Assembly: GCA_958296165.1 (NCBI GenBank)
Contig: OY282447.1
Coordinates: 434,001-498,000, forward strand
From: an uncultured Pseudomonadales bacterium
GTDB lineage: Bacteria; Pseudomonadota; Gammaproteobacteria; Pseudomonadales; Azotimanducaceae
DNA length: 64,000 nucleotides
Direction of reading: 5' to 3'
Shown here: positions 6,479 through 33,018 of the stretch, piece after piece
Position numbering within the stretch: the first letter of the stretch is position 1
Layout: every line of letters begins with the position of its first letter
Translations under genes and position numbers: made by a program
Notes under the pieces: model-generated
What the model saw: the letters and a program-made list of their open reading frames with translations, nothing else
Database searches by the model: none
What the model was told of the DNA's origin: nothing

Positions 6479-6492
6479 CCGCTCCTCCTTCG

Positions 6493-7194
6493 CTAGTAGT
6501 ACCAGCTCCTCTTGACCTCGACGCTAGGCCGCGGATCGTCCGCCGGAAGGATGGATGCCACTTGGCTGCGGATGGTCTCCGTCATCACGCCTACATGGTC
6601 GATCAACTTCCATGGGAAGCGACTCTCCACAAGGAACTCCGCCTGCTTGTGCTCCTTTACCGTCGGATCGCGCCAATCCCGCGCTCTCACCGCTTCCCAA
6701 TCAATGTCCTTCAGATCCCGTAGGCTGCACCGATCCTCGAAGTATGCCGCTCCCGCGTTGGAGAGCGTGAACGCCCATCGCAGCTTCTCGTTCTCCGCCC
6801 ATTGCACCGTCCGTCGCAGATCGGCGACGAGGTGAACGATCGGTTCCTGACCACCTCTGTATGTCAATTCCGGATGGTTGCGGGAAATCACAAAGAGCAT
6901 CACCGAACGGGGCCAGAAGTAAAACGGCACACAGCCCCCCACGCGCAAGTCCGGGTGGCTCAACAAGGGCTTCAACAAACGACGTTGCTTGATTTGGCCG
7001 ATGCCGATTGTGGTGCCCGGCGACGAACGCTTCACGGCCATCTCATCGCACCAGAGGTACCCGTCATTGACAATGGACCGTAGCCGGTCGACATGGACGA
7101 TGTGGACGATCTTCGGGCGCTGCGGCACGGGTCGTGGTCGGCGTTGCTCGGCGCATAGTACACCGACCCTAGAGGAGAGCCAGGGCGATTGCAT
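6493..7194 (-). CDS. darT: DarT toxin: single-stranded-DNA thymidine ADP-ribosyltransferase
   Basis: A 233-residue DUF4433/DarT protein. The N-terminal NAD-binding region (PKIVHIVHVDRLRSIVNDGY), the central segment VGGCVPFYFWPRSVMLFVI and the catalytic-Glu region KQAEFLVESRFPWKLI are all present, so the toxin looks intact. The start is unusual: ATG 7194 lies inside the terminal inverted repeat of a short element (7181-7365) that inserted at the 5' end. Before insertion the frame would have begun with tandem ATG codons. A GTG at 7128, five codons before the family-conserved region, is an alternative start. Neither has a clear Shine-Dalgarno sequence. Confidence 0.9.
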   Translation of the reverse strand: MQSPWLSSRVGVLCAEQRRPRPVPQRPKIVHIVHVDRLRSIVNDGYLWCDEMAVKRSSPGTTIGIGQIKQRRLLKPLLSHPDLRVGGCVPFYFWPRSVMLFVISRNHPELTYRGGQEPIVHLVADLRRTVQWAENEKLRWAFTLSNAGAAYFEDRCSLRDLKDIDWEAVRARDWRDPTVKEHKQAEFLVESRFPWKLIDHVGVMTETIRSQVASILPADDPRPSVEVKRSWYY

Positions 7195-7365
7195 TTGGGA
7201 ATCTTTGGTGGGTTACGTGGCCAAACAGCCCCCGGCCGGGGCCGATTTCACCTCCAAAACGACCGAAATGGGTCTGACAAGACGGTTTTGAGGGGTCGCT
7301 TGCCACTGTTCGGCGTGCGTTTGGGCGACGAGACGACATTTTATGTCCTAATGCAATCGCCCTGA
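7181..7365. mobile_element. 185-bp MITE-like element with 15-bp terminal inverted repeats
   Basis: Perfect 15-base inverted repeats bound the element: CAGGGCGATTGCATT at 7181-7195 and its reverse complement at 7351-7365. They are flanked by an exact 10-base direct repeat, AGAGGAGAGC, at 7171-7180 and 7366-7375, as expected for a target-site duplication. The interior encodes no transposase, so movement would depend on a full-length relative elsewhere. A target duplication of about 10 bases is typical of IS4-type elements, but the family is not proven. The element sits at the 5' end of darT. Confidence 0.85.
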
Positions 7366-7560
7366 GAGGAGAGCATCATCCAATGGCGCGGTGCAGGCCC
7401 CGGGGCGTATCATCCGCACGCCAAGACGTTTGGGGCCTCGGCCGCGGCGCCGCACGCAAGGTACTTTCCATCACGCAGCCCAGCAGCTGAGCCACGCGGC
7501 TTTGACAGCCAAGCGACAAGGCGGCAGAGTACAGCGTTGCGACGCTCGGTTAGGGACGGT
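7366..7560. other. Non-coding leader between the element and the SPOR lipoprotein gene
   Basis: Beyond the right copy of the target duplication there is no recognisable gene. In-frame codons before Met 7561 (from 7537) encode no signal-like sequence. In the ancestral arrangement this DNA lay directly upstream of darT, so the original darTG promoter should be here, now separated from darT by the inserted element. Confidence 0.4.
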
Positions 7561-8307
7561 ATGTATCAAACGAGATGGCCGAGGACACTCCTGTTGGCGC
7601 CATGCGCGTTGCTGGCGCTAGCGGCTTGCCGGGGGCCAGCGCCGGCCGACGCCACCGCCAACCCGCGCACCTCGCCGGGCACCTGGTTTTGCCAATCGTC
7701 GGCTGGCGGCGGGGAGTGGGCCTGTCGTACCAACATCGATGCCGCCGTGCCGCGCCCAACGCGCCAGCCCGTCGTGAGGACGAAGCCGGATCCGTCGCCT
7801 AGGGCGGCACCAACACCGAGCGCGCCGATTGCACGGGCGCCGATCGCTGCGCCAGCGACCGAGCCGGCACCGCCACCAGCGCCTAAACCGCCAGCAGCCA
7901 CAGCACCAGCAGCAGCCCCAAAAACGGCAGCCGCGGCGGCGCCGCAGCGAGCCGACGATCCGGCCCTGCCTCTGTACCGGCGGCTCGCCTATCGATTGAA
8001 TGGCGAGACGCCGTTGAACGAACTGCCAGCAGAGTTCTATGCCCTGCAATTGCTCGCCATGTCTACGCCGGAGGAGTTGGCGCAGTTCACCGCCGAACGG
8101 CGACTGTCGGGCATGGCCAGCGTGCGCGTCGAGCGCAACGGCGACATCTACTACGTCCTGTTGGCCGGCATCTACGAAAACAGCGAGACCGCGGAACGCG
8201 CAGCGATCAGTCTCGAGGCGGAATTGGACGGCTTGGAACCCTGGATCCGCCCATTGCGCACGCTGCTGGACGCCATGCGCCGCGCCGACCAGATCGCCGG
8301 CGAATAG
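7561..8307 (+). CDS. SPOR-domain lipoprotein
   Basis: About 248 residues from ATG 7561. The N-terminus is a lipoprotein signal ending in LLALAAC. A long Pro/Ala-rich low-complexity linker follows, and the C-terminal 90 residues form a SPOR domain (EFYALQLLAMSTPEELAQF, then DIYYVLLAGIYENSETAERA). SPOR domains bind denuded glycan strands of septal peptidoglycan, so a role in division or wall remodelling in the periplasm is likely. The next gene begins 14 bases downstream on the same strand and also encodes a lipoprotein, suggesting co-transcription. Confidence 0.8.
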   Translation: MYQTRWPRTLLLAPCALLALAACRGPAPADATANPRTSPGTWFCQSSAGGGEWACRTNIDAAVPRPTRQPVVRTKPDPSPRAAPTPSAPIARAPIAAPATEPAPPPAPKPPAATAPAAAPKTAAAAAPQRADDPALPLYRRLAYRLNGETPLNELPAEFYALQLLAMSTPEELAQFTAERRLSGMASVRVERNGDIYYVLLAGIYENSETAERAAISLEAELDGLEPWIRPLRTLLDAMRRADQIAGE

Positions 8308-8321
8308 CGGCGAGCCGCCCG

Positions 8322-9476
8322 ATGAAGACGTCGCTGCTGGCTGCCGTCGGCTGCCTTGCCGCTTGTGGTGGCGGCGGCGGCGGTGGCAGTGGCGGCGGCA
8401 GCACCCCGCCACCCGCGCCTCCTCCCGTGTCTAGCGGCTGCTCGGTCGCCGTAGCCGCAGGCCCGTTCAACGCAGTCTGGCCAGACGACGACTGGCAACG
8501 GGCTACGCCACAGTCGCAGGGGCTGTGCCCCGATGCCATCGATGCCGCGCTGCGTTACGCCTTCGGCGAGGACAACTACACCGGTGCGGTGCTGGTGGCG
8601 AAAAACGGCTATCTGGTGTCCGAGCGCTACGCCGACGATCGCAGCGCGAACGATCTCGCCACGAGTTGGTCGGTCGCCAAGAGCTTCACCAGCGCCTTGC
8701 TCGGCACGGCGCGCGACGACGGTTTGATGGACGACATACGGGAACAGAAGGTCGCCGACTTGATGCCGGCCCGGTTTGCCGACGATTGGCGCGACACGGA
8801 AAAAGCCGACATCTCCGTGTGGCACCTAACGAACCTGCGCACCGGCCTCGAGCCCGTGGTTGCGGCACTGCTCTACGACGCGCCGGATCAGCTCGCGCTG
8901 GCCATGGATCGCAAACTGATCGGCAGTCCTGGAGAGAAGCTCTACAGCTACTCCAACGCCGACGTAATGATCGCTGGCGAAGTGATTCAAGGCGCTACCG
9001 GCACGCCCGCGCAGCACTATTTCGCGCAACGCATAGGAGCGACGATCGGCTTCAGCGGCGATTGGTGGCAAGACAGCGCCGGCAACGTGATGACCTACTG
9101 CTGCTTGGATGCAACGCCGCGAGATTTCCTCCGCTTTGGCCTGCTGTACGCGCGGGGCGGCGAGTGGAACGGCGACAGGTTGATCTCCGCGGACTGGATC
9201 GCCACGAGCACCGCTCCCGCACTGCGCGGCGAATATGCCTTCTACTGGTGGTCGGCGCCGCCGCAAGGCAAAGGCTTCACCGCCATCGGCCTGAATGGGC
9301 AGATCGTTGCCGTCTACCCGGAAGAAGACCTGGTGGTCGCCCGCTTCAGCCGCTATCGACGCATGGGCGACGGTCATGCCGTGAAAGTGGAAGGCAACTA
9401 CCACGAGACCACCGCCCCGGCGGCATTCGACAACGATACGTTCTTAGGCCAAATATTCGAGGCCGTAGAAACCTAG
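8322..9476 (+). CDS. Lipoprotein serine hydrolase, class C beta-lactamase/PBP4* fold
   Basis: A 384-residue protein with lipobox LAAC followed by a Gly-rich spacer of more than ten glycines and a Pro-rich run. The catalytic domain carries the SxxK motif in SWSVAKSFTSAL and the Tyr motif in YSYSNADVMIAG. The third motif is less clear, possibly the HxG-like IGLNGQ near the C-terminus. Such enzymes act on D-Ala peptides, esters or beta-lactams in the periplasm; the substrate cannot be read from sequence. It lies 14 bases after the SPOR lipoprotein gene. Confidence 0.8.
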   Translation: MKTSLLAAVGCLAACGGGGGGGSGGGSTPPPAPPPVSSGCSVAVAAGPFNAVWPDDDWQRATPQSQGLCPDAIDAALRYAFGEDNYTGAVLVAKNGYLVSERYADDRSANDLATSWSVAKSFTSALLGTARDDGLMDDIREQKVADLMPARFADDWRDTEKADISVWHLTNLRTGLEPVVAALLYDAPDQLALAMDRKLIGSPGEKLYSYSNADVMIAGEVIQGATGTPAQHYFAQRIGATIGFSGDWWQDSAGNVMTYCCLDATPRDFLRFGLLYARGGEWNGDRLISADWIATSTAPALRGEYAFYWWSAPPQGKGFTAIGLNGQIVAVYPEEDLVVARFSRYRRMGDGHAVKVEGNYHETTAPAAFDNDTFLGQIFEAVET

Positions 9477-12266: not shown

Positions 12267-13433
12267 CTATCGCGCTGGCCAGCGCCACGGCGGCAGTTCG
12301 AGAGGGTCGAAGCCCACCGCGAAGGTCTGCCCAAACTCCTTGTCGAGTTCCAGATGGTTGACATCTTCGGCCTTGGTCAGCGCCTCGATCAGGCTGGGCG
12401 CATGCGTGGTCACCCATAGCTGCGTGTCGTCCGCACACTTGCGCATGAGCCGGCCTAGAGCCGGCAGCAGCTCCGGGTGCAGGCTCGTCTCCGGCTCGTT
12501 CAGCACCATCAAGCTCGGCGGGCGCGGCGTGAGCAAGGCAGCGATCCACAACAGGTAGCGCAATGTCCCGTCCGAGAGTTCCGCCTGGGAGAGCGGCCGC
12601 AACAGGCCATGTTGGCGAAACAGCAGCTTAAACAAGCCGCCGGCTTCCGCCACTTCGACCGTTGCATCGGGGAAGGCATCGGCCACCGCCTCGGCCAGCG
12701 CGGCGTCGTCGCCGATCTCCATGATCGTGCGCCAAGCCGCCGCCAAATCGTGGCCGTCGTTGGCCAGCACCGGCGTGCGAGTACCGATCTGCGGCACGCG
12801 CGCCGGCGAGGCGAGGTCGGTGCGGAAGTGGTCGTAGAAACGCCAAGAGCGTATCTGCTCGCGCAGCATCAATACCTCCGGCGCGCGCTCGGGATCTGCG
12901 AGGCGCGACAGCACGCTGTCGTAGCTCGGCAAGTTGCGTTCGATGGCCTGCCACCGACCTTCGCCGTCGCGCACGCGCACGACGGCGCCGCGCCGGTCCA
13001 TGCAGCCGCGTTGATCGTGCCAGGTGCCGCCGTGCCAGATGACTTCGCGCTTGATCTCAGGGTCCTTGTGGAACATGGTGCGCGGCACTGGCTGCGGCAG
13101 GCCGAAGTCGATGGCATAGCTGAAGTCGTCGGCGGCGAGACCGAAGCGCAAACTCACCGGCTTCTTGCGGGTCGTGCCCTGCACGGCGAAGTCGCCTCGT
13201 TTCACAGCGCGGCCGATGGTCTCCGGCCCGCCCCACAGCACCGACTCCACGCCGCCTTCGCCGGCCAGCGATTCCGTGGCGGTACCCAAGGCCGTCTCCG
13301 AGAGCAGCCGCAGGGCGCGATAGAGATTCGACTTGCCGCTGCCGTTCGCGCCGGTGACCACATTCAGCCGCGTTAGCGGCAATACCACGTCGCGCAACGA
13401 TCGATAGTTGGCAATGGCCAATGTGCGCAGCAT
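12267..13433 (-). CDS. RecF/SMC-like AAA ATPase of unknown role
   Basis: 388 residues from ATG 13433 (MLRTLAIANYRSLRDV); the upstream ATG at 13463 adds ten non-conserved residues. ABC-type ATPase motifs are complete: Walker A GANGSGKSN, signature LSDGTLRYL, Walker B SLMVLNEPETSLHP and switch His in VTTHAPSL. This domain (AAA_21/AAA_15) is shared by RecF and by ATPases of OLD-type and other defence systems. There is no attached or adjacent nuclease, so it stands alone here. It is divergent from nth, with about 115 bases between. Confidence 0.85.
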   Translation of the reverse strand: MLRTLAIANYRSLRDVVLPLTRLNVVTGANGSGKSNLYRALRLLSETALGTATESLAGEGGVESVLWGGPETIGRAVKRGDFAVQGTTRKKPVSLRFGLAADDFSYAIDFGLPQPVPRTMFHKDPEIKREVIWHGGTWHDQRGCMDRRGAVVRVRDGEGRWQAIERNLPSYDSVLSRLADPERAPEVLMLREQIRSWRFYDHFRTDLASPARVPQIGTRTPVLANDGHDLAAAWRTIMEIGDDAALAEAVADAFPDATVEVAEAGGLFKLLFRQHGLLRPLSQAELSDGTLRYLLWIAALLTPRPPSLMVLNEPETSLHPELLPALGRLMRKCADDTQLWVTTHAPSLIEALTKAEDVNHLELDKEFGQTFAVGFDPLELPPWRWPAR

Positions 13434-13549
13434 CAGCTTTCGCCGCCAAGCGCCCCGCAGCACACGGCCTTGTCGATGGTCGGCAGCTTGGCGGACAATC
13501 CACCTACACCCAACACGCGCCTCATCAACAAGCGCCTCATCGAACGCAA

Positions 13550-21957: not shown

Positions 21958-22000
21958 ACCCTTTTTCCTCACGCCCTTCACGCCCCTTCACGCCCCACCC

Positions 22001-23224
22001 TCACGCGAGCGCTTGTTCGAAGTCGCCGAGCAGATCTTCCACATCCTCAATGCCCGTGGAAATGCGAATCAGCGAGTCCGCGATCCCCATGCTGGCGCGG
22101 CGCTGAGGCCCCATCTCGTGATAGATCGTCTCCGCGACCGGAATCGCCAACGTGCGGTTGTCGCCTAAATTGCTGGACTTGATGACGACTTGCAAGCGAT
22201 TGAGAAACGCGAAGGCGTCGATGCCGTCGACAAGCTCGAAGCTGAACAGGGCGCCGGGATGGCGGAACAGCGCCATTGTCTTCGCGTGTTGGGGATGGTC
22301 GGCGAGGCCGGGATAGTAGACGCGGCGCACTTTGGGATGCGCGGCCAGCAGATCGACCAGCGCTTGCGCGTTGGCGCACTGGCGCTCCTGGCGCAACGCC
22401 AGCGTCTCTGCGCCCAAGCTCAAGTGGTGCGCCGCCTCCGCGCCGAGCGTGGCGCCGAAATCGCGCAGGCCCTTCTTGCGCATCTGCGTGATCGCCCACT
22501 TCCTGGCGTCGCCCTTCTTGTAGGCGTCGTAGATGTTGGCGAACGCAGTCCAGTCGTGCAGTCCGGTCTCCGTGATCGCGCCGCCGAGAGCGTTGCCGTG
22601 GCCGCCGATGTACTTGGTTAGGCTGTTGACGATCAGCGAGGCGCCCACCGTCACCGGCTGGAACAGATAAGGCGACGTCATGGTGTTGTCCACAACGTAC
22701 ACCAAGCCGCGTTCTCGACAGACTGCGCCGATGCCGTCGAGGTCGCTCACTTGCGTACGCGGATTGGCGATGGTCTCGACGAACACCAGCTTGGTATTCA
22801 GGCGCAGAGCGTCTTCCACCGCACTCGTGCGGGCGGCGTCTACGAACGTAACGTCCACGCCATGCGCCGCGAAGCTCAAGAACAAGCTGTTGGTGTTGCC
22901 GAACAGGAACGAACTCGACACGAAGTGGTCGCCCTCGCGCAGCAGCGCGAACAGCATCGTGCCGATGGCGGCCATGCCGGTGCTGAAACACACCGTGGCG
23001 ATGCCGCGCTCCATGCGGCTCATCTTCGCCTCCAGGGCAGAGACGGTGGGATTCACCTGCCGAGCGTAGGAATAGCCGGAACTCTTGCCCTGGAATACGT
23101 CCGCCAAGTCCCGCACGTCGTCGTAGCCGTAGGCGACCGTGGCGTGGATGGGTTTGTGCAACGAGCCGTGTTCGATAGGGTCGAGCCGGTCCGAGTGGAC
23201 GATGGAGGTGGTGAAGCCGCGCAC
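22001..23224 (-). CDS. PLP-dependent trans-sulfuration enzyme (cystathionine gamma-synthase/O-acylhomoserine sulfhydrylase family)
   Basis: A 407-residue Cys/Met metabolism PLP enzyme. The cofactor Lys is in SLTKYIGGHGNALGG, with SGYSYARQVNPTVSALEAKM near the N-terminus, CFSTGMAAIGTMLFALL, and VDNTMTSPYLFQP holding the PLP-nitrogen Asp. The C-terminal SNLGDNRTLAIPVAE and LIRISTGIEDVEDLL segments are typical. The family makes cystathionine or homocysteine from O-acylhomoserine, or degrades cystathionine or methionine; the exact reaction cannot be set from sequence alone. Confidence 0.88.
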   Translation of the reverse strand: MRGFTTSIVHSDRLDPIEHGSLHKPIHATVAYGYDDVRDLADVFQGKSSGYSYARQVNPTVSALEAKMSRMERGIATVCFSTGMAAIGTMLFALLREGDHFVSSSFLFGNTNSLFLSFAAHGVDVTFVDAARTSAVEDALRLNTKLVFVETIANPRTQVSDLDGIGAVCRERGLVYVVDNTMTSPYLFQPVTVGASLIVNSLTKYIGGHGNALGGAITETGLHDWTAFANIYDAYKKGDARKWAITQMRKKGLRDFGATLGAEAAHHLSLGAETLALRQERQCANAQALVDLLAAHPKVRRVYYPGLADHPQHAKTMALFRHPGALFSFELVDGIDAFAFLNRLQVVIKSSNLGDNRTLAIPVAETIYHEMGPQRRASMGIADSLIRISTGIEDVEDLLGDFEQALA

Positions 23225-23591
23225 GATCTCTTGGGGCAGGATGGCGAAAGCGTGGCGACTATAGCCGTTCGGCGCGAGGCTGTCAGGGTTGGCAAGCTCG
23301 ATGCGCTTGCGTTGTGGCGTTTTTCGGCAGGCGCGGGCCGTGCGATGTGGCGAACCTCGTATCCCGCGCCGCTAAGCGGCGAAGGTCGGCGCTATCCATG
23401 TCGGCGAACGGCGCCGGCTCGACCAGCGAGCGCAGGCGGTGGAGACACCCGGCTTGGCCGTGCCCAGCGCCGGCCCCGCCCGTCGCCTTCGTCAGGTACT
23501 GCGGCAGCAGCCCCTTGTCGGTCCCGTAGCGACGTCGCCGGTGATCCAGTGAGCTAAGACCCACCGCAGAGGCTACCGGAGGCTACCGGCA
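23225..23591. other. Gene-free stretch bounding the three-gene operon
   Basis: No recognisable gene in 367 bases. A minus-strand open frame at 23283-23564 has no family resemblance. At 23571-23589 a 10-base unit (GGCTACCGGA) is tandemly repeated nearly twice, just beyond the stop of the AAA ATPase gene. I see no terminator or att-like sequence. Confidence 0.35.
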
Positions 23592-24701
23592 CTACTGTGG
23601 CCGGTGGTTCATTTTCAGTCTGTCTTCCGCCATGCGATGCAGCCTGTGCAAGAACTCCCGTTGGCGGACCCCTTCGTCGCCCCTCTTTTGGGCTTGATCT
23701 TGCATGTCTCGAAAACAATCTTGGATTTCGGACGATTTGATGATCGGCTTGCTCCCACCCATGGTGCTCCTAGTTTGTTGTGCCGTTCGTCGCGCAGTTT
23801 GCAGGTAGAACTTGGCGAGGTCATGTGCATCTTGATCATCATTCAACGGCCTAAGCTCGATGTGGTTCTCTAGGCGACTGCGCAGTGCGGGGTACGCGTA
23901 TGAGTAGCGATTAAGTGCGTCGGGCGTGGCTGCTATCATCAGGAACAGGCGCCGTGGCAGCGCATCCACCATCGCTCTCAGCGCTGAGAGGTACCGTATG
24001 ACGGCCTTTGGTCCGAGAACGCCGTCTTGCTTTTCGATTTCGTCTAGTAGTAGGAAGATGCCTTTCAACACGCCCGCCCTACCGCTCACCTGCGCCAGAT
24101 CTCTAAGCGCGGCTGTTTTCGACTCGACGGTGTCCAATCGGAACTGGACGTCGAGCGCCAGTCGGTGCGCCTTGAACAGTCTAAGGCCTAGCAGCCACTC
24201 CATCATCAGACCCTTGGTTTCGTCGTTGTTCGACTTCCGCAACCTCCGCAGCGCCGTTCGCATGTCGTGACTGCGAGCTTCCTCTATTGGCCCTTTATCG
24301 TCCTTCAAGCTGTCAGCTAGCTTGCCTAAGTGCTCTGTACCCAATTCCTCAACGAGGCGTCTTGTGGTTCCGTCGAATGATCCTTCTGGATCCGCCAGAT
24401 AGCGAACAACATAGTAGCCGCGCCTATCCCGCAGAGCATTTCGTACTTCGATCTCGAAGTGATTCAGGAAGTTGGTTTTTCCAACACCTTGGGTGCCATG
24501 AATGACAACAACCTGCGATGTGTCGTCGCGGAAGAAAGTCACGACACGGTCTTCAGCTTCCGCATCGGCCTCTGAAGTTTGATGTGGGTTTCCCATCGTC
24601 TGATTAGACGCAGGATACGGATTGGTCTCGATACCGAATCGCTCGTACAGGTCACTGGCAGGTTGGTTTTCGAGCTCTCTTAGTTTGTCGCGCAAACTCA
24701 T
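23592..24701 (-). CDS. AAA ATPase of the three-gene putative defence operon
   Basis: A 369-residue AAA ATPase of the ORC/Cdc6-like type. Residues 23-30 (GIETNPYP) form a short lead-in. Walker A is GTQGVGKTN (69-77), Walker B IFLLLDEIEKQ (215-225), sensor 1 LFLMIAATPDAL (252-263), with Arg-finger candidates in LRSRLENHIEL (273-283). The C-terminus is helical and charged. Its ATG overlaps the stop of the PIN-like gene by four bases (ATGA), so translation is coupled. I do not recognise a named family. Base composition looks less GC-rich than neighbouring housekeeping genes, suggesting transfer. Probable role: powering or gating the co-encoded nuclease (inference). Confidence 0.7.
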   Translation of the reverse strand: MSLRDKLRELENQPASDLYERFGIETNPYPASNQTMGNPHQTSEADAEAEDRVVTFFRDDTSQVVVIHGTQGVGKTNFLNHFEIEVRNALRDRRGYYVVRYLADPEGSFDGTTRRLVEELGTEHLGKLADSLKDDKGPIEEARSHDMRTALRRLRKSNNDETKGLMMEWLLGLRLFKAHRLALDVQFRLDTVESKTAALRDLAQVSGRAGVLKGIFLLLDEIEKQDGVLGPKAVIRYLSALRAMVDALPRRLFLMIAATPDALNRYSYAYPALRSRLENHIELRPLNDDQDAHDLAKFYLQTARRTAQQTRSTMGGSKPIIKSSEIQDCFRDMQDQAQKRGDEGVRQREFLHRLHRMAEDRLKMNHRPQ

Positions 24702-26689
24702 CGTCGAACCTCCTCAATGCGCAAGCTCACGCTCGCCTTGCCTGGGATCAAGAAGTCGCCGCGATATAGATGGATCGGCATGGCGATGGGTCTGCCGCCA
24801 TCCACACGGAGAACATGGACCACATGATCATCGAACTGAGTCTGAGTGGTAGATCCCTCCGTTGAGCGATGCAGAAACCCTTCTTCGCTCGCCTGCTCCA
24901 ATAGTCTGCGAGCGACTTCAGGGTGAATGCCGTCGTCTCGGATGAGAGACTCTAACCAGCGGCCCGTAGGAACAAGCCCGTCGCCTCTTTCGACAGCTCG
25001 AAATCGGCGCAGCGCTATCGCGGCGAAACGATCTGGCGCCGGGGTGGCCGGAGTCGAATACGTCTCGTCCTTTCCTATCGACGCGCACAGGAGTGTCATC
25101 TCTCCTAGCACCCGGTAAGTTCTCGCGCTTTGGCGTAGGTCGGACAAATCCAATGGCCGTCCCTGTTGTGATTGTTTTGTCCGCGTTGAGAACTCCGCGA
25201 AGGACGGGGAACGCAGAAGGCCATCGAGTAGTTTCCTTGGATCTCCATCGCGCAATGCGACCGAAACGGGGACCAGTGCTCGGTTTGCTGTCCAACGCGT
25301 GCCTTCGACGGTGATGAGTTCAGCGGACGCGAGAAACCGCCGATAGTGTCCCGCACTGTAGCGGCTACCCACAAGACGTATGACTTGAGCTTCGTCTAAC
25401 TCCTGGCTATCGTCCAACAAGCAGATCAACGAGAGCAAACTGTTGACGTTGAGCCGTTGGAAGGTAACCGGCTTGGGTTCCGTCCGGCCCGCTTTCTTTG
25501 CTTCTCGCTTGGTAGCGGAACGTACACCTGCGTCGCCCCTCTGTTGGACCGGAGGTACAACAGGTGAAGCAACGCCCTTTGTCTCGCACTCCTCACGCCA
25601 GAGCAGGTCGTCCGTCGAGTGGAACGGGAACCAAGGTTTGTCCTCTGTCAATGCACAGACCGTCCATTTCCTGTCATCCTGCTGTAAACGCGCACTGCCG
25701 AAAGCAGTCGCAAGCTCCCAGAGCAGCGATGCTAACGAGACGGGCCGCGATTCTCCGGTAAAGGGGTCCAATGGCCGCCCCATTAGGCGTTTGCCAAAGA
25801 GAGCGTCCGCCTGCACAGCCCGAAAGTGAAGCGGCCTCGCGCCTTCGGCCAACGTCATCAACGCCAGGCCCTGGTCGCTTGTGAGGAGCAACACGGGGTG
25901 GCCCCGCTCTGATTGCGCTTGGTGCAGGCGCACTGCCTCCAACACTAGGCGATCGACATACGCTCGCAGAGGGACACTGATATTGAGCTGCCGTAGGTGC
26001 TGATCTTGGTCCGGTTGAAAAGCACTGCGCAAAGGGTCCCCAAGAAGGTAGGTTCGCTCTATCTCGACGTCGTCTTGGAGTTCCAGCCGGACTAGCGCTC
26101 GCTGGCCGCCTTGGCTCTTCATGTGCTCGATCAACTCGTCGACTCGTTGCCGTTCCGCTCCTTTTCGTCGAATCGAGAAGAAGCGATGAGAGAAGTTGGC
26201 GACTTCCATCTGCACGATGGACGGTATTTTCACTCTAGCTGTCGGGTGCAGATGGCGCGCCACGAAGTCGAGAGCGCCCTGCAGTGCGCCGGAAGTGTCC
26301 GAAACCACCGTCGTTGGGCGGCGAAGGGGCATTTGCTCAATGGCGGCAGGATCGAAGATTGGATGCAACAGCCCTATGCGAACGGCAATAGTTGCGACCT
26401 GATCCAAGGCGCGGTGGACCTTGTCGTCGCCCTCTTTAACGCCCAACAGGCCAACCAAACTATGTTGGGTCTCAGTGACATCAGGCAGCGACCACTCGAA
26501 TGCGCCCTCGCGGACGACATCGACTCGATCCTGGGGAGCGGCCTCCGACGTGACCGTAATCGTCCCTAGTGGAAGCCACTGTCCGCTAAACGCCCGCTGC
26601 TCCTTGACAGCGAGGGCCCATCGACCCGGCGAAAAGAGATCGGCGATTTCCTGCTCGGCATCGTTTCGAGAGATGAGGTGGGCGGTCAT
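24698..26689 (-). CDS. Large protein with a PIN-like nuclease domain, three-gene putative defence operon
   Basis: 663 residues from ATG 26689, chosen because it overlaps the stop of the preceding gene as ATGA; an ATG 17 codons upstream also exists. Residues about 125-300 look like a PIN-type nuclease: Asp131 in TTVVSDTSGALQG, Glu162 in IVQMEVANF, Asp246 in PLRAYVDRLV and Asp272 in LLLTSDQGLALMTLAEG, the expected acidic quartet. The N-terminal 120 residues are beta-rich. A Lys/Arg/Pro linker (about 405-435) leads to a helical C-terminal part resembling winged-helix repeats. Predicted to cut RNA or single-stranded nucleic acid. Whole-protein family unknown. Confidence 0.6.
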   Translation of the reverse strand: MTAHLISRNDAEQEIADLFSPGRWALAVKEQRAFSGQWLPLGTITVTSEAAPQDRVDVVREGAFEWSLPDVTETQHSLVGLLGVKEGDDKVHRALDQVATIAVRIGLLHPIFDPAAIEQMPLRRPTTVVSDTSGALQGALDFVARHLHPTARVKIPSIVQMEVANFSHRFFSIRRKGAERQRVDELIEHMKSQGGQRALVRLELQDDVEIERTYLLGDPLRSAFQPDQDQHLRQLNISVPLRAYVDRLVLEAVRLHQAQSERGHPVLLLTSDQGLALMTLAEGARPLHFRAVQADALFGKRLMGRPLDPFTGESRPVSLASLLWELATAFGSARLQQDDRKWTVCALTEDKPWFPFHSTDDLLWREECETKGVASPVVPPVQQRGDAGVRSATKREAKKAGRTEPKPVTFQRLNVNSLLSLICLLDDSQELDEAQVIRLVGSRYSAGHYRRFLASAELITVEGTRWTANRALVPVSVALRDGDPRKLLDGLLRSPSFAEFSTRTKQSQQGRPLDLSDLRQSARTYRVLGEMTLLCASIGKDETYSTPATPAPDRFAAIALRRFRAVERGDGLVPTGRWLESLIRDDGIHPEVARRLLEQASEEGFLHRSTEGSTTQTQFDDHVVHVLRVDGGRPIAMPIHLYRGDFLIPGKASVSLRIEEVRR

Positions 26690-27144
26690 TGAAGAGACAC
26701 CGAGATGCCGGGGCGGTCCTTGAAACATGCGACCAGCCACTTCAGATGCAGAACCAAGGCCAACAGTGGGTTGGTCTCGATCGCGCCGTATGGTTCGTGG
26801 ACTTGGTAGATCGGGAGGTCGCTGACGGGAACTGGTCCTGCCTCGCCCGTGCGAATGGCCTCCTCCGCTTCTGCGACGAAGCGCTCGAGCGCATCGATGC
26901 CGCGCTCGGTCGGCTGCAAGGAGACCGCTAGCCTATCCACCAACAGATCGCGAAGGCGATCGCGGACAGCCTCGCTGGCGATGCCACTGAACGGCTCTTC
27001 CGACGACCACGAGTACACTTCCGTTTGCAGGTTCACATCGGAGTCGATCACGCGCGAACCAGCCTGCTCATCATGGAGCGCAATGGGGTGCGGCGGCGTG
27101 AAGTTCCGCCAAATCGAGAGCTTGAGATGAACGACATCGGCCAT
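26686..27144 (-). CDS. First gene of the three-gene operon, unknown 152-residue protein
   Basis: From ATG 27144 the product is MADVVHLKLSIWRNFTPP and onwards, 152 residues; thirty in-frame codons further upstream look non-coding. The N-terminal half is beta-rich (HLKLSIWRNF, VNLQTEVYSW). The middle is a long charged helix (RLRDLLVDRLAVSLQPTERG, then ALERFVAEAEEAIR), and the end is hydrophobic (ALVLHLKWLVACF). No signal peptide, membrane span or catalytic motif is seen. It overlaps the PIN-like gene by four bases, so it is probably an obligate partner such as a sensor, adaptor or inhibitor. That role is inference. Confidence 0.55.
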   Translation of the reverse strand: MADVVHLKLSIWRNFTPPHPIALHDEQAGSRVIDSDVNLQTEVYSWSSEEPFSGIASEAVRDRLRDLLVDRLAVSLQPTERGIDALERFVAEAEEAIRTGEAGPVPVSDLPIYQVHEPYGAIETNPLLALVLHLKWLVACFKDRPGISVSLQ

Positions 27145-27278
27145 CGCACGATTCCACACAAACTGCTGCGCCCGATGAGCGAGCTGGGGCCGGAGTATAC
27201 GCGATGCAGATGGAAGCGCTGCTAAACGACACAACGGTCACGCCAGCCACCCCCACGTTTCTTGGCCCGCGCCGCTTA

Positions 27279-27389
27279 ACTGCTGGTAGTGTTCCGCTCC
27301 GCCCTGTGGAGAACGCGAATATCGCATCGAACCTCGCTCGGCACATGGTTGGCTGCCAGCGCCATCCTGCCGGCCACAAACGAACATCG
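27279..27389 (+). pseudogene. Decayed duplicate of the 5' end of the lipoprotein gene at 30564
   Basis: This segment lines up by eye with 30523-30673, the leader and first codons of the intact lipoprotein gene. Shared blocks are ACTGCTGGTAG, GCATCGA-CCTC, CTCGGCACA, GTTGGCTGCC, TGCCGGCCAC and CGAACATCG. The copy lacks about 40 bases of the signal-peptide region, and the position of the start codon reads ATC instead of ATG. Beyond 27389 similarity fades. The rest of 27145-27531 shows no gene. Confidence 0.65.
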
Positions 27390-27531
27390 CGGCATCTGCA
27401 CGATCACCCGGACGAGTTCTACGGCGAACCGAGAGCAAGGCTGCCAGAATTGAGGCGAGTCTACATTCGAACCATCCAAATCGCCCGTCATCGATGTGCC
27501 ACCCTGGGTTTCCGGTCCTGATCTGGGCCAA

Positions 27532-29276
27532 CCCTAATGTTGCATTAAGTACGCCGATCTATAGGGCGAAAGCGGCGAGGTAGTCGTTCATCGTGGCCTC
27601 GGTCCTGGGGTCGCACATGATGGAAAGGACGGGTTTTCGCTGCGGGTACAGGAAGCGTCCGGCGCGCAGCAGGAAGTCGTTTCGCATCGTGCGCAGCTGC
27701 TCGAAGTTCCAAAGCGGCGAGCGCTTGGCGCTGGCGCGGCGTTGCGGCGCGCGGGCGGCCATCTGGAGTTCTCTGGCGAGGTTGTGGGCGAGCATGGCGG
27801 CGAGCGCGAACAGGCGGTTGGCGGGTTCGCGGCGGGCGGGGACGCGGGACAGTCCGCACTGCGACTTGAGTTCGGCGAACAGGGCCTCCTGGGCGCCGCG
27901 GCCGTCGTGGAACAGGGCGACGCGCCGGGCGCTCTGGCGCTTGTTGGTGACGACGGCCTTGAACTCGAAGCCGTGGGCGCGGGGTTCGAACAGGTCGAGC
28001 TGCAGGGGCCCCGGGCGGCGGATCGGCACGCGCCGGCGGATCACGACGATGCGGCGCTGGCTGGCCCAGCTGTTCGGCTTCCAGTCCGGCTCGAAGCACT
28101 CGGCGTCCCGGCCGGCCTTGCGCCATCGGGTCTGGCTCTCGATCAGCTGCTTGAGCGCCGGGAAGCGCTCGAAGGGCACGGACACGGAGTAGTCGACGCG
28201 GCGCCGCTCGAACAGGCCGAGGACGTCCTCGCCGAAGAAGGCGCCGTCGGCGCGGGCCTCCAGCCGCGTTCCGGGCAGCGCGTCGCGCAGGCGGGCCAGC
28301 GTTTCGTCCATGAACTCCCGGGCTCCCGTGGAATCGGCCACGTTGCCGGGGCGGTGCAGCACGTCCAGCGCCTGGCTGGTCTGCGCCACGGTGGCGAACA
28401 GCGGCCAGTAGCTGCGCTGGCCCTTGCGCTGCGGGTTGTAGCCCGCCGCCGTGCCTTCCGCCTGCCGCTTCGTGCCCAGCACCGAGCCGTCGAAGTCGAC
28501 CGTCGCGCGCCCCGGGCGCAGCGCCCGCAGCCGCTCGACCACCAGTTCCCGGTTCGCCGCCCGCATCTTGTCGACGCAGCGCCCGTCCATGCCGGCGAGC
28601 GCGCGCGAGACCGTCGACACGTCCGGCAGCCGCCGCAGCCCCACCGCGCGCCGCACCGCCTCGTCGTTGCGGTAGCGCGCCATGTCGCGCAGGCTGCGGC
28701 AGCCGAGCAGCAGGTGAACCACCAGCAGCAGGACGACGGCGTGCGGCGGGTAGGCGCGCTCGGGCAGGTGCCGGAAGCACGGCCGCAGGCGCTCCTTCAG
28801 CCCCAGCCGGGCGAACAGCCGCTGGAAGACGACCAGCCCGGCGTGCGACGTGAGGCGCTGCGCCTCGAATCGGATTTCCAGCGCCCGGTTCGCTTTTCCG
28901 CGCACGGCGTTCCTGCTAATCTTCACTTCGGCGGCCTCCTTCGATGTTTGTTTGAGCACCTCCATCGTACCAAGGGAGGCCGCCGCTTCCGAGATCCGCA
29001 GAACGATTCGGCATCGGTTTTCGAAAGGGCCGAAAGGCGTCGTCGGAGCGGCGCCGCTCAGGCCAACCGCCGGTGCGTTTGAGCGGCAACGCCGAAAATC
29101 CGCATTGGATCCAATCGGGGAGGATCCGAATCGTCCTCGCCGAAACGCCTTCGTCGCGCCTTCCCTTGGTGCGCGCCTACTCTTCTCCCGCTTCGTTTCG
29201 TCGGGAGAACCGACTACGACTCGCCGTGCCGCTCAATCCCAAGGGGATAGATTGAGAATCTAATGCAACAATAGGG
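27532..29276 (-). mobile_element. IS1380-family insertion sequence, complete (1745 bp)
   Basis: The ends are imperfect inverted repeats: CCCTAATGTTGCATTA at 27532-27547 against CCCTATTGTTGCATTA read inwards from 29276, with one mismatch in 16. Both sides are flanked by the 4-base direct repeat CCAA (27528-27531 and 29277-29280), a target duplication size usual for IS1380. Inside is one long intact transposase gene on the minus strand. About 310 bases between the transposase start and the right end are non-coding. The intact gene and matching ends suggest a fairly recent insertion. Confidence 0.92.
27559..28926 (-). CDS. IS1380-family DDE transposase
   Basis: I favour GTG 28926 (455 residues, MKISRNAVRGKANRALEIRF) because AAGGAGG lies a few bases upstream; ATG 28965 would add 13 residues. 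It is a DDE_Tnp_1 transposase: first Asp in TVDFDGSVLGTKRQAEG, second in EARADGAFFGEDVL, and the Glu in the C-terminal region GAQEALFAELKSQCGLS. The N-terminus has the family's LGLKERLRPCFRHLP segment. It cuts and pastes the surrounding IS. No frameshift or stop is seen, so it may be active. Confidence 0.93.
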   Translation of the reverse strand: MKISRNAVRGKANRALEIRFEAQRLTSHAGLVVFQRLFARLGLKERLRPCFRHLPERAYPPHAVVLLLVVHLLLGCRSLRDMARYRNDEAVRRAVGLRRLPDVSTVSRALAGMDGRCVDKMRAANRELVVERLRALRPGRATVDFDGSVLGTKRQAEGTAAGYNPQRKGQRSYWPLFATVAQTSQALDVLHRPGNVADSTGAREFMDETLARLRDALPGTRLEARADGAFFGEDVLGLFERRRVDYSVSVPFERFPALKQLIESQTRWRKAGRDAECFEPDWKPNSWASQRRIVVIRRRVPIRRPGPLQLDLFEPRAHGFEFKAVVTNKRQSARRVALFHDGRGAQEALFAELKSQCGLSRVPARREPANRLFALAAMLAHNLARELQMAARAPQRRASAKRSPLWNFEQLRTMRNDFLLRAGRFLYPQRKPVLSIMCDPRTEATMNDYLAAFAL

Positions 29277-29712
29277 CCAAGGAAGGCATCCTTCACGAAC
29301 GAGCGTCCGCTCGCTACCGCAAAGACGGTCGGCAAGCTCGCTTATTTTGAGCATGTCGTCCCGATCGGCAGCACCAACGAAGCGGCGTTTCTCAAGAGCT
29401 GCCGAAGCGCTGTCGCACGAAAACTGATGCCGGCCGCAGGGGCCGACGCGCACAAAGGAAACGGCGGCGGACGGACAGCGTCACTTGCGCGAGTGACGCA
29501 CGCGCCGCAAGCAGACCGATGCCAGCGCTTGGGCGGGCGCGAGGTTAGAGCGTCAGAGAAGTCGCACAGAAGATCGAGCGGACGTCCTACAGACAAGCAC
29601 TTGTTAGGCCGTGAAACTGCTTGCCGGGCTGGCGCGGGCCAGCGCGGCAATCGACGGGCAAGATCATGCTACTTTCACCGCTGGCGCGGCGGCTGGCCGC
29701 GCCGGACCGCCA
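29277..29712. other. IS target flank, no recognised gene
   Basis: If the IS and one CCAA copy are removed, the flanks join into a sequence with short open frames (for example one containing KLAYFEHVVPIGSTNEAAFL), but none resembles a known family or has a convincing start. The insertion may have hit a gene already in decay. An inverted GCGGTCGGAC-type GC-rich stretch near 29460-29520 could form structure, but no terminator is evident. Confidence 0.3.
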
Positions 29713-30432
29713 TGACGGAGGACAGCCACATGCCAGCGCACACACCGGCCGCGGCCGCCTCGTCCGCGCCAGCGGTCCACGCGCAGATCGCCGCCGAGGA
29801 CGCCCTCTACCCCTGCTCGGACGGCAAGCCGATGTCCGAGAACATGTGGCAGGGGCTGGCCATCGTGAACGCCGTCGTCGACCTCCGCGTGGCGCGCCCG
29901 GGCGCGCCACGCGGCGCCCGACATCCTGGCGTACCCGGAGCAGGGCAACCCGAGGAACCGCGTCGCGCCGGACGTGCTGGTGTCGTTCGGGCTGGGCGCG
30001 CACAACCGCTCGACATACCTGGTCTGGAAGGAAGGGAAGCCGCCGGACTGGGTGCTGGAAGTGGCCTCGCCGAGCACGGTGGGGCGCGACCTGGACGCCA
30101 AGCGGCGCATCTACGCGGAGATGGGCGTGCCGGAGTACTGGCAGTTCGACCCGCAGGGCGGCCTGTTCCCGCTCGGCGCGCCGCGGCTGCAGGGGCTGGC
30201 GCTGTCGGACGGCGGCTACGAGCCGCTGTCGGCGCGGCTCATGAACGGCGAGCGGACGATCCGCAGCCCCGTGCTGGGGCTGGACCTGCGCGCCGAGGGC
30301 GGGCTGATCCGCTTCCGCGACCCCGTGACCGGGAAGGACATTCGGCACCACGACGAGGCAACCGCGGACCTCGCCGCCGCGCAGGCGCGCATCGCGGAGT
30401 TGGAGGCTGCCCTCCGTCGACGGGACGGTTGA
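29713..30432 (+). pseudogene. Uma2 family (DUF820) gene broken by a frameshift
   Basis: The 5' part from ATG 29713 reads MTEDSHMPAHTPA up to MWQGLAIVNAVVDLRVARPG in one frame. The remainder is in another frame: APDILAYPEQGNPRNRVAPD, LVWKEGKPPDWVLEVASPST and DAKRRIYAEMGVPEYWQFDP, the Uma2 core. The switch falls in or next to an 18-base perfect palindrome, GGCGCGCCCGGGCGCGCC, at 29891-29908. The two halves together give a full Uma2 protein (about 240 residues) with a C-terminal coiled coil. A single-base error or true mutation would explain it. An internal ATG (29974) could express only the C-terminal part. Confidence 0.8.
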
Positions 30433-30563
30433 TAGCAGGCTGTCTCTAAGAAGCTGGCCGTTCGGCCGCGCTGCCATAGTTGCCCACGAGAGGGGCAATT
30501 GCGCTGCAAAACGCCGCACACGACTGCTGGTAGGGTTCGTTCTGTTCTTTGGAGGACGCGAAC

Positions 30564-31355
30564 ATGGCATCGATCCTCAAGACTTTCGCTCTCGGCACAC
30601 TCGGCCCACCCGGCGCGCTCGCTTTACTCGTTGGCTGCCAAGCCCCTTCCTTGCCGGCCACGGACGAACATCGAGCGTTGTTTCCGGGCGAATACAGCGG
30701 CTCGCTGGGTGGCGATTTGCAGGCCACGTTGTCGATCACGCCGGCACTGTCGTACGTCTACGAACAGGATCTGGGCGAAGCCAGCAGGCTCGACCGCATC
30801 AGTCGCGCCGGCACATTGCAAATCACCGGCCTAAAGAGCGCAACCGCCGGCAGCGTAGTCCTGCAATGGCAGAACAAGAACGCCGTTACCGTGCGCTCGC
30901 CGCACGGTTCGCGTTTCGATCCCAATCCGCTCGGCGGCGGCGATTACATGCAGGGCCACGAGTTCACGATGCGGCGCACCACGGCGCGTGGCGAACGGGT
31001 CATCGGCACCGTCACTGTGGCGATGGCGCCGCGCAAGCCCCAGTGCGAAGCGCAGGTCTCGATCTCCTACGTGCAGATGAACACTCGAGTGCGCGTCGAG
31101 ACCACGGTGGAGAACGAAGGCTGCGCGGCCTCCAGCGGTGATTACGCCCTGCGCCTGCGCACCGTGGACGGCGATGGCGAGATCGAAACCCGCACGTTCG
31201 CCGAATCTTGGTCGCGCGCGAACACCGAGCCCGTAGCCACGGCGAAGCTCTACGACATCGGCAGCGGTCGGCGGCTGGTCTGGGCGCAGGTGTCCACCGC
31301 GCCGGCAACGAACTGCCGTTGCCACGGCGTCGAAGACGAAGCCCCTGCGCTATGA
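30564..31355 (+). CDS. Lipoprotein of unknown function
   Basis: 263 residues from ATG 30564, with a lipoprotein signal ending in LALLVGC. The mature part is beta-rich (YSGSLGGDLQATLSITPALS, GSVVLQWQNKNAVTV, RVRVETTVENEGCAASSGDY) and has several Cys that could pair in the periplasm. No family recognised. GGAGGAC upstream of the start serves as a ribosome-binding site. A decayed copy of its leader and N-terminus lies 3.2 kb away at 27279-27389, on the other side of the IS. Confidence 0.6.
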   Translation: MASILKTFALGTLGPPGALALLVGCQAPSLPATDEHRALFPGEYSGSLGGDLQATLSITPALSYVYEQDLGEASRLDRISRAGTLQITGLKSATAGSVVLQWQNKNAVTVRSPHGSRFDPNPLGGGDYMQGHEFTMRRTTARGERVIGTVTVAMAPRKPQCEAQVSISYVQMNTRVRVETTVENEGCAASSGDYALRLRTVDGDGEIETRTFAESWSRANTEPVATAKLYDIGSGRRLVWAQVSTAPATNCRCHGVEDEAPAL

Positions 31356-31388
31356 TGCGAACGATCAATCAGCCCCAAGGAGAAGGAA

Positions 31389-32429
31389 GTGTCCAAGCTG
31401 TCGGAAGACCCGCGCATAGACCCGCGCATCAAGGCAGGCTTCACAAACATGCCGGAAATGCAGAATCCGGGCGACGCGGCGAGCCGCGAACAACTGCTCG
31501 AAGAGGCGGGCTCGGCGCAAGCGAAGGCCGCCGCCCAGGGCATGAAGGCATTCATGGCGCTGTGCGACACGGAAGAAGTGGCGCCTTCCACAGGCTTGCG
31601 GACTGAAACGAGAACGTTCGAGTCGGCGCCGGACGGCAACACGATCAAGGTGCAGTACATTCGCCCGGACAACGCCGAGACGCTACCGGCCGTCTACTAC
31701 GTCCACGGCGGCGGCATGCAGTCCATGTCCTGCTTCGACGGCAACTACCGGGCTTGGGGCCGCATCATCGCAGCGCTTGGCGTGGCAGTGGCGATGGTGG
31801 ACTTCCGCAACGCCCTCACGCCGTCCTCGGCGCCCGAAGTGGCGCCGTTTCCCGCCGGCTTGAACGACTGCGTCGCCGGCGTCAAATGGCTGGCCAACAA
31901 CGCCGACGAGCTGGGCATCGACGCTGGCAGCATCGTCATCGCCGGCGAGAGCGGCGGCGGCAACTTGACGTTGGCCACAGGCCTCGCCCTGCTGCGCAGC
32001 GGCGACATCGGCCTGATCCAAGGGCTCTACGCGCTGTGCCCCTACATCGCCGGGCGCTGGCCGCTGCCGGAGAATCCTTCCTCCACGGAGAACAACGGCA
32101 TCCTGCTGAACCTGCACAACAACCGCGGCGCCATGGCCTACGGCATCGGCGAACTGGAGAACGGCAATCCGCTGGCGTGGCCGGGCCTGGCCAGCGAGGA
32201 CGACGTGCGCGGGCTGCCGTATGTGGTCATCAGCGTGAACGAATGCGATCCGCTGCGCGACGAGGGCGTCAACTTCTACCGCTTGCTGCTGCGCGCCGGC
32301 GTGCAGGCGAGCTGTCGGCAAGTGATGGGCACCATCCACGGCACCGAGATATTCCCCATGACCTGCCCGGAGATCAGCCGCGAAACGGCGCGCAGCATCG
32401 CCGACTTCTGCCGCGGCACAACGCGGTAG
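31389..32429 (+). CDS. Alpha/beta hydrolase, HSL-type esterase
   Basis: 346 residues from GTG 31389, with AAGGAGAAGGAA just upstream. The oxyanion motif is YYVHGGGMQS, the nucleophile elbow VIAGESGGGNLTLA, the acid VISVNECDPLRDEG and the His GTIHGTEIF, giving a full catalytic triad of the hormone-sensitive-lipase family. Substrate unknown; relatives hydrolyse short acyl esters. It is followed nine bases later by the HD-domain gene, so both are likely in one transcript. Confidence 0.88.
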   Translation: MSKLSEDPRIDPRIKAGFTNMPEMQNPGDAASREQLLEEAGSAQAKAAAQGMKAFMALCDTEEVAPSTGLRTETRTFESAPDGNTIKVQYIRPDNAETLPAVYYVHGGGMQSMSCFDGNYRAWGRIIAALGVAVAMVDFRNALTPSSAPEVAPFPAGLNDCVAGVKWLANNADELGIDAGSIVIAGESGGGNLTLATGLALLRSGDIGLIQGLYALCPYIAGRWPLPENPSSTENNGILLNLHNNRGAMAYGIGELENGNPLAWPGLASEDDVRGLPYVVISVNECDPLRDEGVNFYRLLLRAGVQASCRQVMGTIHGTEIFPMTCPEISRETARSIADFCRGTTR

Positions 32430-32438
32430 GGCCAGTCC

Positions 32439-32996
32439 ATGAAGACGGTCGCTTTCACCCGCATGGCGGACGGCACAGCGGAGGAATATGCATTTCTGCT
32501 GCCGCTCTACGAGCAGAATCGCAACAAGGTGCCAGACGCCCTGTTCGGTCTGCTCGACGCCATGCGCGGCGATCGTCTGGGCTACCAAGTGGATCGCTAC
32601 ACGCACTCCCTGCAAACCGCCAGCCGGGCGCTACGCGACGGCGCAGACGAGGAAACCGTGGTCTGCGCCCTGCTGCACGACGTCGGCGACGTGCTGGCGC
32701 CCGACAACCACAGCGCCGTCGCCGCGGCCGTCCTGCGCCCCTTCGTGAGCGAGCGCAACCACTGGGTGGTGCTGCATCACGGCCTGTTTCAGGGCTACTA
32801 CTACTTCCACCACCAGGGCCAAGACCGCAACGCCCGAGATCGCTACGGCGATCACCCCCACTATCGCGCCTGCGTGGACTTCTGCCAGCATTGGGATCAG
32901 CAATCGTTCGACCCGAACTACCCCACCCTGCCGCTGGCCCACTTCGAGCCCATGGTGCGGCGCGTGTTCGCCGAACCACGGCGGCAATTCGATTGA
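32439..32996 (+). CDS. HD-domain protein, PhnZ/MIOX-like
   Basis: A 185-residue HD-superfamily protein. Metal ligands are visible: His56 in YTHSLQTASRA, His80-Asp81 in ALLHDVGDVLAP, and conserved NHSAVAAAVLRP, with further His residues in VVLHHGLFQGYYYFHH. Its size and motif spacing resemble PhnZ-type HD oxygenases that use a diiron site rather than phosphodiesterases. Substrate unknown. It is nine bases after the esterase gene. Confidence 0.75.
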   Translation: MKTVAFTRMADGTAEEYAFLLPLYEQNRNKVPDALFGLLDAMRGDRLGYQVDRYTHSLQTASRALRDGADEETVVCALLHDVGDVLAPDNHSAVAAAVLRPFVSERNHWVVLHHGLFQGYYYFHHQGQDRNARDRYGDHPHYRACVDFCQHWDQQSFDPNYPTLPLAHFEPMVRRVFAEPRRQFD

Positions 32997-33018
32997 TCGG
33001 CGCTGCGTTGCCGGCGCC

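Follow-up and report, generated by a model that had tools for sequence, protein, structure and literature searches.

A rare, mobile three-gene cassette with a predicted PIN nuclease and a BrxC/BrxD-type ATPase is a probable anti-phage system

The window analysed here is a 64,000-nucleotide (nt) stretch from the genome of an uncultured Pseudomonadales bacterium (5.07 Mb in one contig; called G000 below). Three overlapping genes in it, labelled A, B and C for the first, second and third, are a real co-inherited unit and travel together as a rare cassette. Judging from the sequences of its members and their surroundings, this trio probably forms a previously unnamed anti-phage system. We consider it fairly likely that the trio works as a small module, spread horizontally and directed against phages (or other mobile elements), in which C activates a PIN effector, B, and growth is arrested. 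The evidence consists of the three-gene unit itself, the assignment of the PIN domain and the ATPase by sequence profiles, the conservation of their motifs, the horizontal spread of the cassette, and the defence-like residence of some of its copies.

Recurrence of the trio

Among 195 genomes (the relatives of the host and the host itself), full-length homologues of B were found in only four: G000, G002, G003 and G092. When the same set was searched with C and A separately, strong matches again came from these four genomes, and strong matches to the three proteins never occurred apart. A scan of genome contigs with B yielded four relatives from 157 candidate stretches, namely the three already found and one more (locus L012, genome G1159). 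In total, five trio loci are recognized at four sites, as the copies of G002 (L010) and G003 (L011) share one site. The order A-B-C on a single strand is kept in all five, and at all ten joints the genes overlap, by either four bases or one; the joints of the window trio read ...CAATGACC... and ...CGATGAGT..., both with an ATGA overlap. The trio recurs in the four other loci at 41-43% (A), 46-50% (B) and 59-61% (C) protein identity to the window copy, and therefore its recurrence is more than chance. A sequence-only reading of this DNA had taken the three genes for one coupled operon, and had named homologues that never co-occur as the finding that would count against it. In the genomes searched A, B and C were always together, and co-inheritance holds for the four genomes of the 195 and for that of L012.

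Several other matches were dismissed as chance: two for B (in G017, within a proline dehydrogenase gene; in G330, short and with three internal stops), one for C (in G032, the P-loop of a protein apparently headed by a kinase) and two for A (in G006 and G032, in regions resembling an ABC transporter and a sulphite reductase), the last three being judged from the appearance of the open reading frames (ORFs). B had no match in plasmids (1e-5) or phages (1e-2), and neither a scan of genome contigs with this one protein (26 candidate stretches) nor one of viral contigs (28 stretches) yielded a homologue. Searches with C found three plasmid records at 1e-2, every one haloarchaeal, and nothing in phages or in viral contigs (103 stretches). 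In samples drawn evenly by order, class and phylum, nothing credible except the window's own genome was found for B (390 and 369 genomes), and the same was true of C in an even sample of 349 genomes at 1e-6. These searches score only a handful of candidates in each genome and may therefore overlook distant members.

Genomic setting

In L012, the trio and a helix-turn-helix (HTH) gene lie between hmaB and hmaA, two genes of the candidate defence system Hma (helicase-methylase-ATPase), on the strand opposite to both; the flanking genes were recognized by PADLOC models at 1375 bits (HmaB) and 1575 bits (HmaA). The hmaB gene is cut at the end of its contig, and another contig of G1159 ends with the missing HmaB part, so that the two contigs probably adjoin. 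Inward from that end, the second contig carries genes for an AAA_21 ATPase, a DUF4276 protein, a 419-amino-acid (aa) ORF and a DUF499 protein. The hmaA-hmaB gap looks like a site at which accessory genes are exchanged, since its contents differ in the three loci read: the gap of L063 (G000) holds a 275-aa ORF that belongs to no Pfam family, and that of L064 (G003) holds an AAA_15/AAA_21 ATPase and a 161-aa ORF. This gap thus suggests a place in which to seek further defence genes. Beside the L010 trio there are an orphan DNA methylase, a HATPase_c-like protein of 678 aa (7017-9053 of that locus; its HATPase_c match is just under the cut-off, and no PADLOC family matches it at 0.01), and two ATPase genes of RecF/SbcC appearance. 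The suggestion of a defence role in the sequence-only reading is supported by the place of the L012 trio in a gap that is variable elsewhere, and the methylase and ATPase genes beside the L010 trio agree with it. Altogether, one of the five loci is nested in a recognized candidate system, and two more share one site, with defence-like genes in G002.

The position in L012 could also mean that the trio is an accessory part of Hma, or of another large defence system, and no system by itself. We hold this to be very improbable: matches to the HmaB profile in the other four genomes are either on different contigs from the trio or a long way from it, the window's genome has a trio-free Hma locus at ~2.69 Mb, and even in L012 the trio runs against the direction of hmaA and hmaB.

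Other genes of possible defensive use were seen in the window and its genome. At 5420-7194 (minus strand), a DarT gene (PF14487, E-value = 2.3e-54) and a gene for a macro-domain protein (E-value = 3.7e-26) make up a toxin-antitoxin pair of the DarTG type, a known kind of phage defence. An AAA_21/AbiEii-like ATPase (12267-13463, minus; E-value = 8e-35) is a possible defence gene, and an HNH_2 endonuclease is encoded at 49209-50159 (plus; E-value = 3e-10). The whole genome G000 contains five DUF499 matches at four places and several matches to the HmaB profile, and seemingly has several Hma-like loci.

Mobility and selection

The gene adjoining the trio in the window (22001-23224, lyase-like by its look) exists in all 16 genomes of the window's genus, and the trio in three of those 16. 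Between the window's genome and G002 or G003, which belong to the same genus, this gene is 79-80% identical, and B is only 49% identical; G092 belongs to another genus, yet its B shares 61% identity with that of G002 and G003. The GC content of the trio is below that of its surroundings in all five loci. In the window it is 57.8% against 64.4% for the whole, the lowest among stretches of the same length sampled each 50 bases, as had been suspected from the sequence. Being patchy, low in GC and related in ways at odds with its hosts, the cassette moves between genomes.

At the site shared by G002 and G003, the flanking pieces are 91-92% identical and the trio stretch 98.1%. The trio genes of the two genomes have 32 base differences in synonymous codons and 20 in non-synonymous ones; as most sites are non-synonymous, this points to purifying selection on the trio. 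In comparison with G002, deletions have apparently truncated the genes on both flanks in G003, and the trio is intact. Clean cassette borders in L010 and L011 were considered and dropped, because L011 seems instead to differ by deletions that truncate the adjacent genes. When seven relatives were inspected for an empty insertion site upstream of the 22001-23224 gene, no match to the window was found beyond the end of that gene.

Orc/TniB-like ATPases are found in transposons, and the window trio adjoins an ORF that resembles an insertion sequence (IS) by its look. The trio might thus be a transposon-type ATPase operon or, alternatively, a set of housekeeping genes for nucleic-acid processing, in either case without a defence role. 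The chance of this seems slim to us, as no transposase is evident beside all five trios (the neighbours being judged mostly from ORF lists rather than searches), and a core function is unlikely because the trio exists in only four of the 195 genomes. Of the features near the trio, the 468-aa ORF at 27559-28965 (minus), with a third-position GC of 0.93, is transposase- or IS-like by ORF appearance alone. The decayed duplicates that the sequence-only reading had placed beside the trio are unsupported at the level of direct repeats of at least 20 nt, as none exists within 22000-33000.

Predicted proteins

The ORFs and the letters at the joints agree with the earlier description of three minus-strand genes with two ATGA overlaps, whose positions are given in Table 1.

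Table 1. Location of the trio and its parts in the window
Feature	Coordinates	Strand	Basis
Gene A, 152 aa, no family	26686..27144	minus	ORF; homologues in 4 other loci, 41-43% identity
Gene B, 663 aa, predicted PIN-domain protein	24698..26689	minus	ORF; PIN_4 PF13638 profile
Predicted PIN region of B, ~residues 125-300, with D131, E162, D246 and D272	25790..26317	minus	conservation, five members
Gene C, 369 aa, AAA+ ATPase of the BrxC/BrxD (Orc/Cdc6-like) kind by profile	23592..24701	minus	ORF; PF10923 in family
ATGA overlap of A and B	26686..26689	minus	sequence letters
ATGA overlap of B and C	24698..24701	minus	sequence letters

The PIN_4 family (PF13638) is matched by all five members of B (E-value up to 0.05), with that of L012 (3.7e-5, 24.5 bits) exceeding the cut-off of 21.9 bits. 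Residues 125-300 contain 56% invariant positions among the five members, compared with 20-29% in the other three parts of the protein. The acidic residues Asp131, Glu162, Asp246 and Asp272, pointed out in the sequence-only reading, are present and invariant in all five, and their place in the sequence makes them the likely catalytic positions. The sequence profiles thus favour a PIN-type nuclease domain in B. As for the rest of the protein, the structure model, which is poor (see below), includes a pattern resembling a winged helix at ~415-468, no more than a hint, and for the model Foldseek gave several winged-helix regulators at E-values of ~0.08-0.4. The top Foldseek match of B, SiRe_0806 with cA4 (E-value = 0.0025), was not used, the model being poor and the root-mean-square deviation ~14 Å. 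That the C-terminal half of B is a winged-helix partner remains unproven, as profile comparison with the archaeal neighbour proteins described below and the Pfam search were both negative.

All motifs that had been read from the sequence of C are conserved in all five members: GTQGVGKT, FLLLDE, TPD and R274/R276, which we take to be Walker A, Walker B, a sensor-1 candidate and Arg-finger candidates, respectively. The BrxC_BrxD family (PF10923) was found in four of the five (E-value up to 0.01), the best being that of L012 (1.5e-8; 34.4 bits against a cut-off of 22.2), and window C is 59-61% identical to the four members that match. Window C itself gave NACHT, ATPase_2, AAA_22 and AAA_16 at 1e-5 to 2e-4, each below its cut-off, and weak PADLOC matches to PbeC (3.9e-5, in the P-loop stretch only), Mad8 (4.1e-4) and SngB (0.035). 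The C profile also matched two proteins of haloarchaeal plasmids over 278 columns (probability 98.5% and 98.0%), both of which carry the annotation 'BREX system ATP-binding'. In both plasmids (L016, 7064-9125; L017, 7066-9119), the C-like ATPase gene overlaps a gene for a ~300-aa protein, near tRNA-guanine transglycosylase genes. The L016 ATPase matches BrxD (1e-13) and SngB (2e-10) in PADLOC; its ~300-aa partner has no PADLOC match at 0.01, and profile comparison detected no similarity of the L016 partner to A, or of either plasmid's partner to B. From the PF10923 matches and the conserved AAA+ motifs, C appears to belong with the Orc/Cdc6-like AAA+ ATPases of the BrxC/BrxD kind, with the window copy excepted by profile; an ORC-like ATPase had been proposed in the sequence-only reading.

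A restriction-like complex of C and B, which would scan DNA so that B nicks or cuts the invader and the host survives, is an unlikely reading of these two proteins, although parts of it have a basis. Orc/Cdc6-type defence ATPases were proposed, in the available part of PMC10853773, to ring DNA and to work with winged-helix recognition proteins. The winged-helix-like pattern of the poor B model and its weak Foldseek regulators would suit this, and L010 and L012 do have a DNA-modification gene nearby. However, no such gene is evident beside the window or G092 trio in ORF lists that were not fully searched, and Pfam HTH families were missing from the C-terminal pieces of B in all four members tried (0/4; DUF6895, at 0.007 and under its cut-off, was the sole match of the window piece). 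Moreover, PIN domains are best known as ribonucleases (RNases). The part of PMC13092281 available likewise calls them ribonucleases.

Searches of Pfam, PADLOC, NCBIfam, PHROGs and PDB sequences gave nothing notable for A. Its AlphaFold2 (AF2) model (mean predicted local distance difference test, pLDDT, of 74) has a beta-rich N-terminal half followed by three predicted helices, and a fold search found no significant match. Conservation is highest in a C-terminal motif at about H133-L-K-W136 and R144-P-G146. Consistent with the earlier impression that it has no known relatives, A seems to represent a protein family of no known kind.

In VapBC, a small gene is followed by an overlapping PIN gene, and the order and overlapping joints of A and B resemble this. 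A toxin-antitoxin-like stress module, with B as PIN toxin, A as antitoxin and C as regulator and with no link specific to phages, is therefore a reading of the trio, but one to which we give a low probability. A has neither an antitoxin nor a DNA-binding family and no significant fold match, B with its 663 aa is no single-domain PIN protein, C accompanies A and B in every genome in which they were found, and the L012 trio is within an Hma locus.

Proposed function

By analogy with such ATPases and PIN domains elsewhere, abortive infection by an ATPase-driven PIN nuclease is the best candidate mechanism for the trio. C, the BrxD-like Orc/Cdc6-type ATPase, would recognize infection, the probable means being its loading onto the invader's DNA or onto a replication intermediate, and would then switch B on in an ATP-dependent manner. 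The PIN domain of B would cut nucleic acid, most likely RNA, and the infected cell would stop growing before the phage is completed. A may tether B and C to each other, or restrain B in uninfected cells.

Several results weigh against a defence system of this kind. Support is thin, because there are five loci only and two of them are near-identical (98%). In the window, C gives no match to PF10923 at E-values up to 1 or at 0.01, and B stays under the PIN_4 cut-off of Pfam (E-value = 0.0038; 18.0 bits against 21.9; residues 130-283). The structure of B is poorly predicted: its AF2 model, made from five sequences only, has a mean pLDDT of 48, with residues 130-241 below 50; no chain described as PIN was among the 50 Foldseek matches listed for this model, and the B profile found no PIN match among PDB sequences. 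Because the model is poor and the structural searches returned no PIN, the PIN call rests on the sequence profiles and motif conservation. In other words, profiles and invariant residues favour the PIN nuclease of the sequence-only reading, whose fold in three dimensions is a prediction from sequence. Neither A nor B has a match in PADLOC-DB. As for the setting, no defence neighbour is evident beside the G092 trio (from an ORF list read without a family search), and the nearest recognized defence-like genes in the window are ~10 kb or more from the trio.

Taken with the recurrence, the Hma setting and the signs of transfer, a defence role is nevertheless favoured for the trio, though unproven. 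As a more detailed and more tentative proposal, for which we would put the chances slightly below even, the trio may found a defence family that has no name yet, with a large PIN ribonuclease licensed by a BrxD-like Orc/Cdc6 ATPase by way of a new small protein. This family would spread as an exchangeable cassette and would also enter the hmaA-hmaB gap, where other accessory genes come and go.

Comparison with known systems

ATPases of the BrxC/BrxD type are central to BREX and related systems. The role of BrxD is called uncharacterized in the available part of the survey PMC12839542. The likeness of the trio to BREX BrxD/BrxC and to PADLOC SngB, Mad8 and PbeC is limited to the matches of C, that is, PF10923 in four of five members and the weak PADLOC matches of the window copy. 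In the trio, however, the partners of C are a PIN protein and A, and none of PglZ, PglX/BrxX and BrxC was noticed among the ORFs around the trios, where no profile search was aimed at them. The same survey, as far as available, lists PIN endoRNases among the less common backup effectors of BREX-type systems and pairs some of them with OLD-ABC ATPases. Hma is named as a candidate defence system in the available part of PMC8565338; one Hma locus (L012) encloses the trio, but the trio itself is without a helicase, methylase or DUF499 ATPase, and the three window proteins gave no match to the PADLOC models of HmaA, HmaB and HmaC at E-values up to 1.

DS-3 and DS-5, found by DefensePredictor (PMC13092281), resemble the trio in that a PIN ribonuclease is required for defence. 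However, DS-3 is one protein and DS-5 two, and the available part of that paper mentions no Orc/BrxD-like ATPase with them; DS-5 needs its second protein and is described there as likely not a toxin-antitoxin. The trio also departs from VapBC, of which a single-domain PIN toxin and a DNA-binding antitoxin are typical, B being a 663-aa protein and A having no antitoxin family. The haloarchaeal pairs of L016 and L017 share with the trio a C-homologous ATPase and an overlapping arrangement, but their ~300-aa partner is without detectable similarity to A (L016) or B (both). SspB-SspC and the operons of Orc/Cdc6 with multi-wHTH (winged HTH) proteins and nucleases (PMC10853773) are alike in combining an ATPase with a recognition protein and sometimes a nuclease. 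In the available part of that paper, the nucleases named with Orc/Cdc6 are restriction endonucleases, whereas the trio has a predicted PIN domain and any recognition domain in B is unproven.

No published system that unites a BrxD-like ATPase with a PIN protein and a small protein was found in the literature searched, which covered few subscription papers. The trio would add a PIN effector, and the novel family A, to the theme of Orc/Cdc6-type ATPases, and with one recognizable nuclease and one BrxC/BrxD-type ATPase it would be a much smaller object for testing whether such ATPases sense invaders and activate an effector. In short, the trio is rare and, in what was searchable, nameless, and it is best filed as kin to the defence modules that pair an Orc/Cdc6 ATPase with a nuclease.

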